Below the pieces are notes generated by a model that searched no databases, was not told the DNA's origin, and worked only from the letters and a program-made list of their open reading frames with translations. A stretch of DNA of 35,602 nucleotides from positions 1 to 35,602 of the forward strand of contig CAKZPT010000096.1 of assembly GCA_937139365.1 (NCBI GenBank), given 5' to 3'. The position numbers and the translations under genes are program-made. The stretch is from an uncultured bacterium (GTDB taxonomy: Bacteria > Verrucomicrobiota > Kiritimatiellia > PWTM01). Positions 6,604-33,361 of the stretch are shown piece after piece. How positions within the stretch are numbered: position 1 is the first letter of the stretch; each line of letters starts with the position of its first letter.

Positions 6604-7941
6604 AGCCGTCTCATTTTGTAACTCCAGCAGGCGCGCAAACATGCGGCACGCGATCGTCCTGGCCGCCGGATCGCCCAATCGGTCCTCCGTCTCGAGCGGG
6701 TCGTGTTCCAGGTCGAACAACGACGCCCTGCCGGCGGCTGGATACAGGATGAGTTTCCAACGCCGGTCGACGATCATGCGCTGCCGGTCCATGTACGCCC
6801 CGCACACGTAGCCACGCCCAGGTCCCATCGGGTTGGTCAGAAGGGGGCGCAGGCTGCGCCATGCCCACTCCGGCGGCACGGCCACTCCGGCCAGGTCCAG
6901 CGTCGTCGCCGCCAGATCCTGCATGTACACCGGCTCGTCGCAACGGACGCCGACCGGCACCCCGGGACCGCTCACGACAAGCGGCACGCGAACGCTGTGC
7001 TCGTACATGTTTTGCTTGCCCATCAGGCCGTGCCGACCGCAGGCCAAGCCGTTGTCCGACGCCAAAATGATGTACGTGTTGGAGGACCCGTGCGTTCCAC
7101 CTCCTGCAGGAGACGGCCAATCTGCGCATCGAAATGCGAGATGATCGCGTAGTACTCGCGGCGATGCGTTCGGATGGCGAACGGAGTGCGGGGAAAGGGA
7201 GCGAGGTTTTCGTCCCGCAGCTCCGGCCCCGCACCCATCGCAGCAGCGTCGGCGTGTTCGGGCCGGAAATTTTCTGGCAAGGGGACTGACGCGAGGGGAT
7301 AGGCCTCCCAGCATCCCCGCGGCGACTACCGCGGATCGCGCGGCATTGAAGATGGCGTACACCAGCCATGGCCGGCCGTCGGCGCGGGCTCGACGGACCG
7401 CTGCTGCAACCTCGTCCGCCTGCACCTGCGTCCAGTGGCGATCGTCTTTGCGCCAATAACCGCCCTCCGCCGGGTTGCACGGATCGAATGGGGCGGGCCG
7501 GCCTTCTACTGGCCGGCCGTACCAATGTTTCGGGTTCGATCCCAGCAGCCCCGCCCCGGTTGGGCCGGCGTCCTCGAAAATGTCCTCGGGTTTCGCTCCC
7601 TGCACATGCCACTTGCCCACGAAGGCGGTGCGGTAACCTGAAGCGCGCAGCAGTTGGGGCCACGTCCGGGCGGCATGCGCGACCTCGGAAGACCGCGCTT
7701 GGGCGCGCCACAACGGCAGCCCGGTGATCAACATCGTACGGCTTGGAATGCATACCGCCGGCGTCCATGAGCCCTGGATATAGGCCCGCGTGAACATGGC
7801 GCCGCGCCTGACCAGCCGGTCGAGATTGGGGGTTTGGACCGCCGGATTCCCGAAGTCGCCGATGCCATCGACCGCCAGATCGTCCGCCATCAGCACCAGA
7901 AAACTGGGCCGCCGGTGGTCCTGATCGGCCGAGGTGCGCAC
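6604..7941 (-). pseudogene. Secreted sulfatase (S1 family), multiply disrupted
   Basis: The N-terminal part (7941 to about 7345) reads FLVLMADDLAVDGIGDFGNP, then CIPSR (the formylglycine motif) and FVGKWHVQG. The middle, in another frame (about 7345 to 7090), reads VPLPENFRPEHAD, LRDENLAPFPRT and YYAIISHFDAQIGRLL. The end returns to the first frame with SNTYIILASDNGLACGRHG and LFDLEHDPLETEDRLGDP. Defects: a +1 shift near 7335-7345, an amber codon at 7326-7328 (where the family usually has Gln in DPRQSP), a -1 shift near 7087-7091, no stop at the expected C-terminus near 6604, and no start codon before a stretch that resembles a signal peptide end (AAPRIAGAAPASS, to about 7980). It is dead as it stands. 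Confidence 0.85.
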
Positions 7942-13064: not shown

Positions 13065-14243
13065 TCAGGAGGGCCGCCGCCCGTCCATCAGCTCCATGAA
13101 CTCCTGGAACAGGTAGGTCGAGTCGTGCGGCCCCGGACACGCCTCGGGGTGGTACTGCACCGAAAAGATCGGCCGCCGTCGATGCCGCAGGCCCTCCGAC
13201 GTCCGATCGTTCAAGTTAATGTGCGTCGTCTCGACCTGCTCCGGATCCAGCGACTCCAGGTCGACCGCGAAACCGTGATTCTGCGAGGTGATCTCGACCT
13301 TGCCGGTCCGGCGGTTCAGCACCGGCTGGTTGGCGCCGCGGTGGCCGAACTTGAGCTTGTAGGTGCGCCCGCCCATGGCCAGCGCCAGCAGTTGATGCCC
13401 GAAGCAGATGCCGAAGATCGGCACTTCGGTGCGCATGAGGTCGCGCAGAATCCCGATCGTGGTCTGCACGCCCTCGGGGTCGCCCGGCCCGTTGGAGATG
13501 AACACGCCGTCCGGCCGGCTGGCGAGAATCTCGGCGGCGGGGGTCTGGTTGGGGAAGACCTCCACCTCGCAGCCGAGCCGCGCCAGCAGGCGCAACTGGT
13601 TAAACTTCACGCCGCAGTCGAGCACCGCCACCCGCCGCGGCTTCGCCGGCCGGGCAACGCCCGACCCGAGCAAGCGGTCGTAGGCGCGGAACTCCGGTCC
13701 GATCAGCGGAAACCGGTCGAGCGCGGCATGCTCCCCCGGCCAGGTGTATCGCCGCGCTGCGCTGACCTCGGTCGAAAGGTCCCTCCCCACCAGCCCCGGC
13801 GACCGGCGCGCCTTCTCAACGAGGGAATCGGGATCGGGGTCGGTCGTCGAGACCACGCCCTTCATCGCACCGCGCGAGCGGATGTGGAGCGTGACCGCGC
13901 GCGTGTCGACGTGGTGGACGCCGATCAATCCCTTCGACTCGAGAAACTCGGGCAGGGACATCACGGCTCGCCAGTTGCTCGGCCGCCGGCTGCACTCGCC
14001 GACGACGAGGGCCGCGCAGTGCGGCCGCCACGACTCCATGTCCTCGGCCGTGATGCCGTAGTTGCCGATCAGCGGGTAGGTCAGGGTCACGATCTGGCCG
14101 TGATAGGAGGGGTCGGTCAGGATCTCTTGGTAGCCGGTCATTGAGGTATTGAAGACCAGCTCCCCGTACACCTCGCCCTCGCCGGCGAAGGCCTCGCCCT
14201 CGAACCACGTGCCGTCTTCCAGAGCGATGATCGCCTTTTTCAT
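13065..14243 (-). CDS. carA: Carbamoyl-phosphate synthase small (glutaminase) subunit
   Basis: A 392-residue class I glutamine amidotransferase subunit that hydrolyses glutamine and supplies ammonia to CarB for carbamoyl phosphate (arginine and pyrimidine synthesis). The start at 14243 is chosen from the family N-terminus KKAIIALEDGTWFEGEAF; an in-frame extension to 14372 crosses the upstream repeat array and is not coding. Residues 1-150 are the CarA-specific domain (NTSMTGYQEILTDPSY). The amidotransferase domain has nucleophile Cys280 in FGICFGHQ and His365 with Glu367 in SVQYHPEA. The length is normal and all catalytic residues are present. carB is not in the window, which is common for scattered car genes. 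The four-copy palindrome array lies 92-202 bases upstream. Confidence 0.96.
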   Translation of the reverse strand: MKKAIIALEDGTWFEGEAFAGEGEVYGELVFNTSMTGYQEILTDPSYHGQIVTLTYPLIGNYGITAEDMESWRPHCAALVVGECSRRPSNWRAVMSLPEFLESKGLIGVHHVDTRAVTLHIRSRGAMKGVVSTTDPDPDSLVEKARRSPGLVGRDLSTEVSAARRYTWPGEHAALDRFPLIGPEFRAYDRLLGSGVARPAKPRRVAVLDCGVKFNQLRLLARLGCEVEVFPNQTPAAEILASRPDGVFISNGPGDPEGVQTTIGILRDLMRTEVPIFGICFGHQLLALAMGGRTYKLKFGHRGANQPVLNRRTGKVEITSQNHGFAVDLESLDPEQVETTHINLNDRTSEGLRHRRRPIFSVQYHPEACPGPHDSTYLFQEFMELMDGRRPS

Positions 14244-14334: not shown

Positions 14335-14445
14335 TTCCGAACATTGGACGATCCGGCGCCCAAAGGTTCCAACCCTTGGAACGGCCAGGGCCAAAACGTT
14401 CCAACCCTTGGAAGCTCCGGGCGGCGGCGTGTCCAATCCTTGGAC
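14335..14445. repeat. Four TTCCAA-N3-TTGGAA palindromes at exact 32-base spacing
   Basis: Copies begin at 14335 (TTCCGA-ACA-TTGGAC, degenerate), 14367 (TTCCAA-CCC-TTGGAA), 14399 (same) and 14431 (GTCCAA-TCC-TTGGAC). Each is a 15-base dyad of two 6-base arms around a 3-base spacer, and the start-to-start distance is 32 bases every time, close to three DNA turns. The sequence between copies is not conserved except for a CCAAAG/CCAAAAC tract just before two of them. It lies between carA and the end of an isomerase remnant. The phasing suggests cooperative binding of a dimeric protein on one DNA face. The 15-base dyad is too short for a CRISPR repeat, and no spacer or leader structure is present. 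Confidence 0.85.
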
Positions 14446-14459
14446 AGCTTCGGCCGCCG

Positions 14460-14943
14460 TCAGGCGCCGGGCAAGTCGAAGGCGATGCGCCCGATGAACT
14501 CGAGCGCGGCGCGGGCGGCCGCCGCAATTTCGGCCGGCGCTCCCGGCGGCAGGCACTCGATCATCATCGTACCGGAATCCGCCGGCCGTCAGCCGGCGCA
14601 ACATCGCCGGAAAATCCGCCCGGCCGGAACCTGGCGCGATGTTCTCAAGGGCGCGAAGTCCTTTACGCAGAACCCGGTGACCAGCCCGTCCAGCAGGCTG
14701 GCCTGCTCGGCCGGATCGAGTCGCCCGTCCGAGTAGTAGAGGATGTTGCCGGCGTCGAACCCGACGCGAAAGTTGGGCCGGTCCACGCGCCGCACCCAGT
14801 CGCGCACCTGTTCGGCCGTCGCGTTGAGGCCGCCGTGCGGCTCGATGACGATCGCCATACGCCGTTTGGCGGCGTACGGGGCGCATTCGCGCACGGCGCC
14901 GAGCCAACCGTCGGCCAGGCCGGCGTTTCCCGTGCCGCCGAGA
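14460..14943 (-). pseudogene. Sugar phosphate isomerase/epimerase (TIM barrel), 3' fragment
   Basis: The back half of an AP-endonuclease-2-type TIM-barrel isomerase. It reads GGTGNAGLADGWLGAVRECA, then MAIVIEPHGGLNATAEQVRD (conserved metal-ligand Glu-Pro-His), FRVGFDAGNILYY and FCVKDFAPL. Two shifts follow: the frame moves after KDFAPL to LENIAPGSGRADFPAMLRRL, then again to MMIECLPPGAPAEIAAAARA, ending FDLPGA-stop at 14460-14462. The front half of the barrel is absent. Instead, the sequence runs directly into a Gfo/Idh oxidoreductase remnant at about 14944. It is non-functional. Confidence 0.8.
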
Positions 14944-15590
14944 GTGCACCAGGTCGATGAAATGGCTACCCAGCCCCGGGACCGGCCCCTGCGAGAATTC
15001 ACCGTACCAGCCGGAGTCGACGTCGGCCCGGAATGGCCGCGGCAAGCGGTACGTCAGGAACTCGGCCCATTCGACGTCCTCGGCGCGGACGTCCTTGTGG
15101 GACCAGAAGGGCTTTTCGGCGTTGCGGACCTCCTCGATTCGCGTAATCTGGCCCAACACGCCCGAGCGCAGCACCTCATGGCATCCGACGATCGCTGGCA
15201 GGCTCCGCAGCTGCGTGCCCACCTGGCAGACCACGCCGGCCCGTCGGACGGCGTCCACCGCGCGGACGACGCGGTCGAACTCGGTGCCGAGCGGCTTTTC
15301 GACGTAAATGCGCTTCCCCGCCCGCGCCGCTGCCTCCAGGTGCGTCGTGTGCTGGTGGCCGCAGAAAGCGATCATCACCGCGTCGAGGTCGGCGACCTCC
15401 AGAGCTCCCGGTACAAGACGAACTGGCGCGGCTCACTTCCGAACCACTCCTTCGCCCGCACGGCGGCGTCCTCGCGCGCCTTCCGCCACGGGTCCGCCAC
15501 CGCGACCCCCTCGAGGTTCATCGCCTGCGCATGGGGTCGGATGCCGCCCAGGAGGGCGCCGCCGCCGCGGCTGCCACTCTTCCAACTTCT
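14944..15590 (-). pseudogene. Gfo/Idh/MocA oxidoreductase, 5' fragment fused to isomerase remnant
   Basis: The N-terminal Rossmann half and start of the catalytic domain of a Gfo/Idh/MocA dehydrogenase. It reads GSRGGGALLGGIRPHAQAM, LEGVAVADPWRKARED and, after a 1-base loss near 15396-15405, LEVADLDAVMIAFCGHQHT. The diagnostic EKP motif is in RIYVEKPLGTEFD. The frame continues through WSHKDVRAEDVEWAEFL to GSHFIDLVH and then breaks into isomerase sequence. The true start codon is missing: upstream of about 15590 the frame has no plausible N-terminus. It is a truncated, frameshifted chimera left by a deletion between two genes of a sugar-catabolism cluster. Confidence 0.82.
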
Positions 15591-31357: not shown

Positions 31358-32043
31358 GAATCCGACGAGGGATCGCGGCGGCCGGCCACGGCGATGTAGG
31401 CCCAGCGATGCGCGACGCCGCGGACGACGCGGTCCCACGCCAGCCAGAACATCCGCGTCAAATGCCGGGGCGTCTCGCGGCCCTGGCCGACAAACCAGAA
31501 GGCGTAGAAGCCGAACACCTCGCCGCCGTCGAGGAAGGCCTCCTGTTTCCGCTGGGTGAGGAAGACCTGCACCTGGAGGTCCGGCCGCCCCGGTATCGGC
31601 ACCGCGACGACCTCGCCGCGGGCGAGGTGAAACCCCTGTCCCACGAGGCAGCGTTCGGGCCGGTGGATGCTCTCGCGTTCACGGCCGCTGAGCACGATCG
31701 AGACCTGGAGCGACTCGCCGAGGTCGTTCTGATAGATCGCCTTGACGAACTGCGTGTCCTTTGGAAGCTGTTCGTACTCCTCCAGCGTCATCGTATGCAG
31801 CGGCCCCCGGCAGGCCGGACATGGCGCGTCGCGGGAGGGGAGTTCGTCCACGTGGAATTCGCGTTTGCACTCCGGGTTGTGGCAGAACCGCAGTTCCCGG
31901 CCGGTCCACCGGCCCAGCCGTTCGGGCAGCGCCATGCGCACGCCGGCCTGGTCGGAGAGCGACACATCCACGAAGGCATGGAGCGCCCACGCGGTCACCG
32001 CCATCAGCACGACCACCGGCACCGCGGCCGCCGACCGCTTCAT
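31234..32043 (-). CDS. Exosortase-associated EpsI-domain protein with zinc ribbon
   Basis: A 269-residue protein. One N-terminal transmembrane anchor (about 6-26, AAVPVVVLMAVTAWALHAFV) is followed by a four-cysteine zinc-ribbon-like segment, Cys54-x4-Cys59 and Cys75-x2-Cys78 (CHNPEC, CPAC). The EpsI core (DUF3485) then has SIHRPERCLVGQGFHL with His127 and Cys132, the family's conserved HxPExC-like motif. The C-terminal tail from about 250 is low-complexity Ala/Ser and overlaps the convergent SUMF1-like gene by 124 bases. The ATG overlaps the exosortase stop (ATGA), so the two are made together. EpsI proteins work with exosortase in exopolysaccharide/PEP-CTERM export; the exact role is unknown. 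Confidence 0.85.
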   Translation of the reverse strand: MKRSAAAVPVVVLMAVTAWALHAFVDVSLSDQAGVRMALPERLGRWTGRELRFCHNPECKREFHVDELPSRDAPCPACRGPLHTMTLEEYEQLPKDTQFVKAIYQNDLGESLQVSIVLSGRERESIHRPERCLVGQGFHLARGEVVAVPIPGRPDLQVQVFLTQRKQEAFLDGGEVFGFYAFWFVGQGRETPRHLTRMFWLAWDRVVRGVAHRWAYIAVAGRRDPSSDSYLDRLKEFLPLLHPSLLPTDGPSAAASASAATRNPTSASM

Positions 32044-33065
32044 CCGCCCCACGTCCCGGCCGCCGGCGCCGGGGAAAACCAGCGCGCCCGCACGCCCCGC
32101 CACCAGGCGCGCCAGTCGTTGTTCAGCGCCCGCCCCAGCGAAACCATCAGCAGGATCGCAACGATGAACACTACGTAGCCCGAGTACTCGTGGATCAGGC
32201 CTACCGCGACCTTCTCGCCGAAGGCTTCGGCGATCAGACCGATGCCGACGATCCGCACGACGTTGCCGGCGATCGCCAGCGGGATGCTCGACAGAAACAG
32301 CAGCCATTTTTTTAGCAGCGTTTTCTGCGTCGCATACGCATAGACGGCCGTCAGCGCCGTCATCGCCAGCAGCGAACGAAGGCCGCTGCAGGGGTTGGCC
32401 ACGTCCACCCCCCACCGCTCCGTTCCCATCGGCGAAAACGAGCGGATCGCCGAGCCGGACTGGACCACGTCGATGCCGAGGCCGTGGAGGATCGTGACCG
32501 AGGCCGACGTCGCGAACATCCGCAGCGGGAAGGCGATCACGTCCAGGAAGTTCATCGGGATGCAGAAGATGAGGTACGCCACGGGGAAGACCAGGTGGCG
32601 AGCGAAGTCCCACCCGTAGAAGTAGTAAGGTAAGGCCCACAGCAGAAGGATCAGCGCCATCAGCGAGACGCGGGTCTGCTGCATCTTCGCGCCGACCCAG
32701 TGCATCGCGAACCCCAGCGCGATCAGCGCCAGCCCCGACACCGCCACCGATTTGCGCGCAGACATCAACTCGTCGCGCTTGTGCCAAAGCGCCCACAGGC
32801 TGACGAAGGGAATCAGGAAACCGTGCGAGTAATCGGCCCCGCCGAACGAGATCTTGTCCTGCCAGCGGGCGTACATCCACAAAAACGCCGAGCGGCCGCC
32901 GGCGTCGCTCACGGTGTTGCCGAGGAAATGGAAAAGGCCGAACAGGCCCGCGGCGATCGCGGCGGCGACGGCCACCGCCGCCCACTCGTGCGGCTCGAGG
33001 GCCATCAGGCGCCACCGGTCGCTCACCACCCTGACCCGGGGGGTCGCCACCTGTGTTCCGTTCAT
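32040..33065 (-). CDS. Exosortase (membrane transpeptidase-like)
   Basis: A 341-residue inner-membrane protein with about eight hydrophobic helices. The exosortase catalytic triad is clear: Cys226 in VANPCSGLRSLLAM, Arg271 in AGNVVRIVGIGL and His292 in LIHEYSGYVVF. DYSHGFLIPFVSL in the N-terminal half is another family mark. Exosortases recognise C-terminal PEP-CTERM-like sorting signals (motif, TM helix, basic tail) and cut them during export. No protein in this window ends in such a tripartite signal, so the substrates lie elsewhere. The start at 33065 is chosen because the longer frame upstream is Arg-rich and crosses the palindrome array. It is translationally coupled to the EpsI gene. 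Confidence 0.94.
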   Translation of the reverse strand: MNGTQVATPRVRVVSDRWRLMALEPHEWAAVAVAAAIAAGLFGLFHFLGNTVSDAGGRSAFLWMYARWQDKISFGGADYSHGFLIPFVSLWALWHKRDELMSARKSVAVSGLALIALGFAMHWVGAKMQQTRVSLMALILLLWALPYYFYGWDFARHLVFPVAYLIFCIPMNFLDVIAFPLRMFATSASVTILHGLGIDVVQSGSAIRSFSPMGTERWGVDVANPCSGLRSLLAMTALTAVYAYATQKTLLKKWLLFLSSIPLAIAGNVVRIVGIGLIAEAFGEKVAVGLIHEYSGYVVFIVAILLMVSLGRALNNDWRAWWRGVRARWFSPAPAAGTWGG

Positions 33066-33361
33066 GGCAGTTCCACCATCGCTTCGAACCCACGCAAGCC
33101 TACACACGTCCTGGGCCTCGTCAACTTCTCGCGCCCCCTTTCTTCGTCCGGCACGCCATGGACGCCGCGGCCGCGCCTTCCTCGGATGCGCCTTGCGGCT
33201 CCTTGCCCGGATCGCGCCATGCCTTCGACGCGGAACGCGACCTGTTCGCAAGGGAACACCGAAAATGTCCAAGGATTGGAATGCGCCGGGGCAAAACTGT
33301 CCAAGGGTTGGAAACGCTGCGAATGCCACGGCCGGCGGCACGGGCCGGGGTGGGCGCCGCG
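33066..33361. promoter_or_regulatory. Upstream region of the exosortase operon
   Basis: About 296 bases between the exosortase start and the end of the isomerase gene, both on the minus strand. Apart from the two-copy palindrome array (33267-33313) I see no convincing -10/-35 pair and no strong Shine-Dalgarno sequence before the exosortase ATG. No small ORF or RNA is supported. Confidence 0.4.
33267..33313. repeat. Two TTCCAA-N3-TTGGAA palindromes, 32-base spacing (second array)
   Basis: Copies are at 33267-33281 (GTCCAA-GGA-TTGGAA) and 33299-33313 (GTCCAA-GGG-TTGGAA), with starts exactly 32 bases apart as in the array at 14335-14445. Each is preceded on the plus strand by an A-rich tract (CGAAAAT, GCAAAACT) in the same place as CCAAAAC before the 14399 copy. 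It lies about 200 bases upstream of the exosortase start. I looked for further copies at -32 and +32 and found none worth counting. Confidence 0.85.

Follow-up and report, generated by a model that had tools for sequence, protein, structure and literature searches.

The arrays of phased palindromes in the genome of this uncultured bacterium of the class Kiritimatiellia are best explained as about 70 copies of one dispersed chromosomal element. Judged from its sequence features, the element is very probably a genome-wide protein-binding site, and it probably anchors a putative chromosome-binding protein in some Kiritimatiellia. As a phased palindrome DNA mark it is apparently undescribed. The preliminary description of this DNA knew of no named element of the kind, and we likewise found no match to a known element; the open-access papers searched with the motif strings, or with Kiritimatiellota together with palindromes, contained no prior report.

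Two arrays in the window

The window is the whole stretch of 35,602 nucleotides that was analyzed. Dyads of the form TTCCAA-N3-TTGGAA start at 14335, 14367, 14399 and 14431, and both direct reading and a pattern scan returned the originally described steps of 32, 32 and 32 bp (dyad positions carry no strand). The dyads at 14367-14381 and 14399-14413 are perfect (TTCCAACCCTTGGAA in both, 0 mismatches), and those at 14335-14349 (TTCCGAACATTGGAC) and 14431-14445 (GTCCAATCCTTGGAC) have 2 mismatches each to TTCCAAN3TTGGAA, so the initial count of three strong dyads and one degenerate dyad is replaced by two perfect ones and two with 2 mismatches. Because the outer T/A of the dyad tolerates G/C genome-wide, the dyad at 14431 is effectively a good site by the source-genome consensus [T/g]TCCAA-nSn-TTGGA[A/c], while the one at 14335, which keeps the 32-bp phase, is the weakest of the four. 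The array is separated by 91 bp from the start codon of carA (13065-14243, minus strand; CPSase small chain and GATase, Pfam PF00988 and PF00117).

A second array that had been overlooked was found by the pattern scan of the window. It consists of dyads at 33267-33281 (GTCCAAGGATTGGAA) and 33299-33313 (GTCCAAGGGTTGGAA), exactly 32 bp apart. The flanking exosortase (EpsH) gene begins 201 bp from this array (32040-33065, minus strand; PF09721 on 32040-33341, minus strand, with the start placed by the codon-usage gene call). Both carA and the exosortase gene are named here as flanking genes only. When up to 3 mismatches are allowed the window holds 8 dyads against 2.99 expected, a number that was reached in 0 of 100 shuffles. 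The region adjoining the carA array (14460-15521, minus strand) contains frame-shifted remnants of a Gfo/Idh oxidoreductase and of a TIM-barrel-sugar-isomerase-like sequence, which probably represent a decayed fused gene pair.

Anatomy of the element

The anatomy in the source genome (G000) was derived from 59 stretches around sites which together with the window comprise 995 kb. The source genome has 140 occurrences of TCCAANNNTTGGA (TCCAAN3TTGGA) against 2 for a reversed-pattern control, and 61 exact 32-bp dyad pairs against 0. Among neighbor distances of up to 140 bp over the 995 kb, 32 bp dominates (n = 69), followed by 64 bp (n = 5) and 31 bp (n = 3), with all other distances occurring at most twice. 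The genome-wide peak near 32 bp that was named beforehand as a check is present, and the phasing of the dyads by three helical turns holds. Most copies have only two dyads, that is, 15-bp palindromes with 17-nt spacers. The first base of the dyad is T in 67% and G in 29% of cases, and at the center about 97% of the G000 sites have C or G, oriented at random. Arm positions are 95-100% conserved, the spacer of 17 nt is almost free of information and the flanks are random sequence as well. This agrees with the earlier proposal that dyads and their spacing, and not the DNA between them, are under selection.

In the richest genome (G096) the dyads are 32 or 33 bp apart and the base composition around them is phased, with AT-rich positions at 9-10 bp and GC-rich positions at 16 bp from the dyad center. 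Such a pattern is expected for bent or wrapped DNA, from which we infer that DNA carrying the element may bend.

Protein site or structured nucleic acid

A palindrome may act as a hairpin or as a double-stranded protein site. Covariation between dyads was absent (z −0.65 and −0.35) and the spacers gave no pairing signal (z +1.0 and −2.6). Since base-pair covariation is lacking, a double-stranded protein site is likely and a hairpin unlikely. A search of the window against Rfam gave no match, and a hairpin or RNA element was rejected on this ground and for the missing covariation. A CRISPR or other structured RNA was also rejected, in view of the 15-bp palindromes, the 17-nt spacers, the presence of mostly two copies and the lack of an Rfam match in the window. 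The preliminary description had favored a dimeric, cooperative or nucleoid-type protein over a terminator or CRISPR. Both parts agree with these results, with the qualification that cooperative binding of the candidate protein is something that the geometry suggests.

Distribution and dialects

The pattern TTCCAANSNTTGGAA was counted along with controls in 346 genomes of the class Kiritimatiellia, all of them fragmented metagenome bins. Counts range from 0 to 3,017 per genome and do not exceed 3 for the controls. Most families are without the element, including the large family f36, which is at or near zero, and others have hundreds of copies. Variation also occurs inside genera, with 0 versus 110 copies in genus g28 and 2 versus 183 in genus g37. 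In same-genus comparisons of G030 with G041 and G306, and of G098 with G043 and G097, 0-2 sites stand against 85-183; the deficit in G030 and G098 reflects either loss of the element or a change of dialect.

In the sampled part of the phylum outside the class, G380 was the sole genome with pairs (n = 2). A scan of public genomes gave, among the matches listed, named records that all belong to Kiritimatiellia, Verrucomicrobia, Lentisphaerae, the PVC group or unclassified metagenome bins. The element was not found in plasmid sequences, and a pair occurred in 2 of 2.9 million viral contigs. In one of these (L203) the pair, at 7669, lies inside a gene for 2,550 amino acids; in the other (L202) the dyads at 89 and 121 are at the start of a gene for 2,020 amino acids, which was called from position 130.

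Across families the step is 31-33 bp, with 31, 32 and 33 mixed, and rarely 22 bp. In G081 steps of 22, 30, 31 and 32 bp are found, all near whole helical turns. Three of its loci (L230-L232) have 4 to 6 dyads with steps of 22, 30-32 and 22 bp, the 22-bp step often being the first or last. This is a different array grammar in the genus of G081. A different dialect occurs in family f18, where standard sites are almost absent and the symmetric TTCCGA-NSN-TCGGAA forms pairs with 31- or 32-bp steps in 9 of its 11 genomes; such pairs were absent from every other genome searched. The f18 dialect suggests co-evolution of a putative protein with its DNA site. Other phased palindrome pairs were sought in five element-free genomes and none were found in 57-80 kb each, a sample size at which a sparse dialect could escape, while the element was recovered from positive-control samples of the same size.

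Position relative to genes

Genes were called with a simple codon-usage predictor written for this analysis. In G000, where position statistics are conditional on the selection of stretches around sites, 52 of 75 clusters are intergenic against 8.4 expected. This is an about 6-fold over-representation and answers the comparison of coding with intergenic DNA proposed earlier. In G096 the corresponding numbers are 68 of 83 and 8.2. Within the intergenic DNA of G096 the density of clusters is 2.56 per kb in convergent, 2.56 in divergent and 2.58 in tandem gaps, and in G000 it is 0.53, 0.34 and 0.53 per kb, respectively. Arrays in these two genomes thus have no promoter preference and are not depleted from convergent gaps. 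The near-equal density in the three types of gap speaks against promoters as well as terminators. In being dispersed and indifferent to gene orientation, the dyads share a feature of sites that organize the nucleoid or chromosome.

These numbers bear on two explanations based on transcription. The arrays could be operators, either of a global transcription factor or specific for carA, to which dimers bind cooperatively. Operators typically show dyad symmetry and helical phasing, and many arrays lie no more than 300 bp from a start codon. However, convergent gaps, which hold no promoters, have the same density of arrays, some arrays lie inside coding sequence, and the arrays are evenly spaced. 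We regard operators as improbable and disfavored. A link with carA is not supported, on two grounds: arrays have no promoter preference, and none of the other carA loci examined has the array, not even those of G001 and G002 from the same genus. For conservation at orthologous promoters across many genomes, carA is the one locus that was compared. In genomes with few copies, inspection by eye of the genes next to arrays revealed no shared gene.

Alternatively, bound arrays could be insulators or roadblocks at gene boundaries that stop RNA polymerase or the spread of supercoils from either direction. Among gaps of 80 bp or longer, about 60% in G096 contain an array, almost always a single one, and the fraction is highest for convergent gaps (10 of 12). 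Yet divergent gaps are equally dense in arrays, some arrays lie inside genes, and in G000 only about 15% of the gaps of at least 80 bp contain an array. A roadblock function is quite improbable.

Even spacing

Distances between arrays are more regular than expected. With stretches treated separately and distances across stretch joins omitted, spacing in G096 has a coefficient of variation of 0.42, compared to 0.75 ± 0.08 when an equal number of distinct gaps is chosen at random. No neighboring arrays in G096 are closer than 1 kb (8.7 expected) and none in G000 are closer than 7 kb (5.3 expected, P 0.0004); several tests share these same two genomes and are not independent. The two longest stretches free of arrays in the G096 sample correspond to a single gene of 9 kb and to a DISARM island. 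The latter (L216, 1-17006; DrmA, DrmB, DrmMI) is the largest. Genes with atypical codon usage are located farther from arrays, a difference that is no longer significant once the DISARM island is removed.

Origin and maintenance of copies

The carA gene itself indicates how a copy may arise. Its codons for LPTFGIC resemble half of the element, and at these same codons G005, which has the standard dialect, and G025, which has the f18 dialect, possess a full 32-bp pair with no indel. CarA of G005 has a Trp at a position that is Arg or Lys in the other ten sequences of the alignment, and this Trp supplies the TTGG of a dyad. The occurrence of the pair in the own dialects of two families, without indels and with one Arg to Trp replacement, argues against insertion. 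At this one locus the observations fit growth of a pair by substitution, possibly under pressure at the DNA level.

The genomes G001 and G002 are 70-82% identical over most aligned blocks and have about three clusters in common among those located in aligned DNA. In two conserved clusters the arms are identical at 38 of 40 positions, the spacers at 19 of 34 and the center triplets at 6 of 12; the high value for the arms is partly due to ascertainment, because both genomes had to show the motif. Alignments of gaps between the two genomes revealed no clean insertion boundary, though the sequences have diverged. Two species of one genus (G072, L221; G073, L222) have the same pair inside an apparent trpF gene, which suggests that the pair may have been retained at that place for a long time. 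Strict maintenance of sites is also indicated in G096, where 136 are perfect and 30 have one mismatch.

A REP-like or other mobile repeat that was spread by a transposase, and of which the spacers have since decayed, would account for the intergenic, patchy occurrence with variable copy number, and several spacers in G022 are indeed similar to each other. Against this, spacers and flanks in G000 are random whereas the arms are almost invariant, stem covariation is missing, copies are evenly spaced, and neither the insertion at carA nor the clean boundary in the diverged G001 and G002 alignments was observed. We consider a mobile repeat very improbable and largely disfavored.

Comparison with known systems

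Dispersed palindromes that are bound by dimers and are not tied to gene regulation include the Noc and SlmA sites, matS and parS. These differ from the element in number, with about 1 to 100 sites, in their regional bias, and in not being strict three-turn pairs. REP elements and REPINs are similar in being extragenic and paired and in having hundreds of copies, but REPs form hairpins with a defined orientation that a transposase mobilizes, and the element has no orientation, no observed insertion and none of the covariation that an imperfect hairpin with compensatory pairing would display. HIP1 of cyanobacteria is also a very abundant palindrome that varies between lineages, and alternates take its place in some of them (PMC4390886). 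However, it is an 8-bp sequence (GCGATCGC) without phased partners and is linked to methyltransferases.

The closest geometry is that of NrdR boxes. These are tandem 16-bp palindromes bound by an NrdR tetramer. Tight binding requires two boxes, and kinking of the DNA has been reported; like the element, the boxes are paired short palindromes that are separated by 15-16 bp and have their centers three turns apart (PMC12051234). The two-box geometry with an integer number of turns is found here as well, with 69 pairs at 32 bp and 3 at 31 bp. The element differs in sequence, in the odd length of its dyad, in being genome-wide and in not being located at ribonucleotide-reductase operons; the last point follows from the copy number (hundreds to thousands) and the missing promoter preference rather than from the ribonucleotide-reductase promoters themselves. 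Of 58 relatives, 56 have NrdR, whether they carry the element or not, nearly always as one copy and with a similar Zn-ribbon where this is readable. It was rejected as the binder, as neither its presence nor its DNA-binding ribbon tracks the element.

As a further possibility, the element could mark self DNA in natural transformation, in the manner of the DNA uptake sequences of Neisseriaceae and Pasteurellaceae. A surface receptor would prefer DNA with phased dyads, and copies would accrue by point mutation and biased uptake. The DNA uptake sequences DUS and USS similarly occur in thousands of copies, both intergenic and coding (PMC3630211, PMC7811141). The DUS of Neisseriaceae has dialects and 1,900 to 6,000 copies (PMC3630211) and USS is relatively evenly spaced (PMC7811141); the element shares dispersed copies, here up to 3,017 in a genome, clade dialects and even spacing. 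Substitution in place within carA at a cost to the protein, the DISARM island as the largest array-free gap, and the distance between arrays and atypical-codon genes (non-significant without the island) are on the same side. A ComEC domain is present in 57 of 58 relatives, but genomes that lack the element have it just as often, so it carries no information here and competence was dropped as a discriminator. On the other side, known uptake sequences have short, asymmetric, non-palindromic cores, in contrast to a strictly symmetric dyad with a partner three turns away. Also, one-mismatch sites are more numerous than perfect ones in DUS genomes, and the reverse is found in G096 (30 versus 136), with G000 closer to equal (60 versus 55). 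Uptake is an unlikely function for the element, though it is the main rival to the role favored below.

Proposed role and significance

In view of the above, we favor a role in organization of the chromosome. Each copy would comprise at least two 15-bp dyads TTCCAA-NSN-TTGGAA with centers three helical turns (31-33 bp) apart, or, in one sampled genus, roughly two turns (22 bp) apart. Each dyad would most likely be bound by one dimer of a sequence-specific protein, and dimers on the same face could touch, bind cooperatively and probably bend the DNA. Copies would be spread evenly along the chromosome wherever the sequence is free to hold them and would not be operators of specific genes; their most likely job would be nucleoid anchoring, bridging or domain marking. 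We consider organization of the chromosome most likely because the copies are not operators but are evenly spread. We give about equal weight to this reading, in which evenly spread, gene-independent sites are occupied by cooperative same-face dimers of a putative organizing protein, and to its being wrong. A range from 0 to 3,017 copies, variable inside genera, is odd for a core function, even spacing would also fit a DNA-uptake mark, and the sites of known organizers number from tens up to about a hundred and are often regionally biased. More tentatively, and with some doubt, the element may be a new type of clade-wide chromosome marking, in which an oligomeric putative protein with family-level dialects recognizes evenly spaced three-turn dyads, which in the densest genomes recur at intervals of about 3 kb, and selection alters conserved residues in essential genes to fit the sites.

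The element is an abundant and strictly built DNA mark with lineage dialects in one bacterial class. If it is a self-DNA mark, the phylum Verrucomicrobiota, for which we know of no uptake sequence, would have a palindromic one. If it organizes the chromosome, it would provide a bacterial system for the study of even spacing, dialect change and loss in hundreds of genomes. In either case a pattern search readily locates the element, and the dialect together with the loss within genera provides a direct route to the candidate binding protein.
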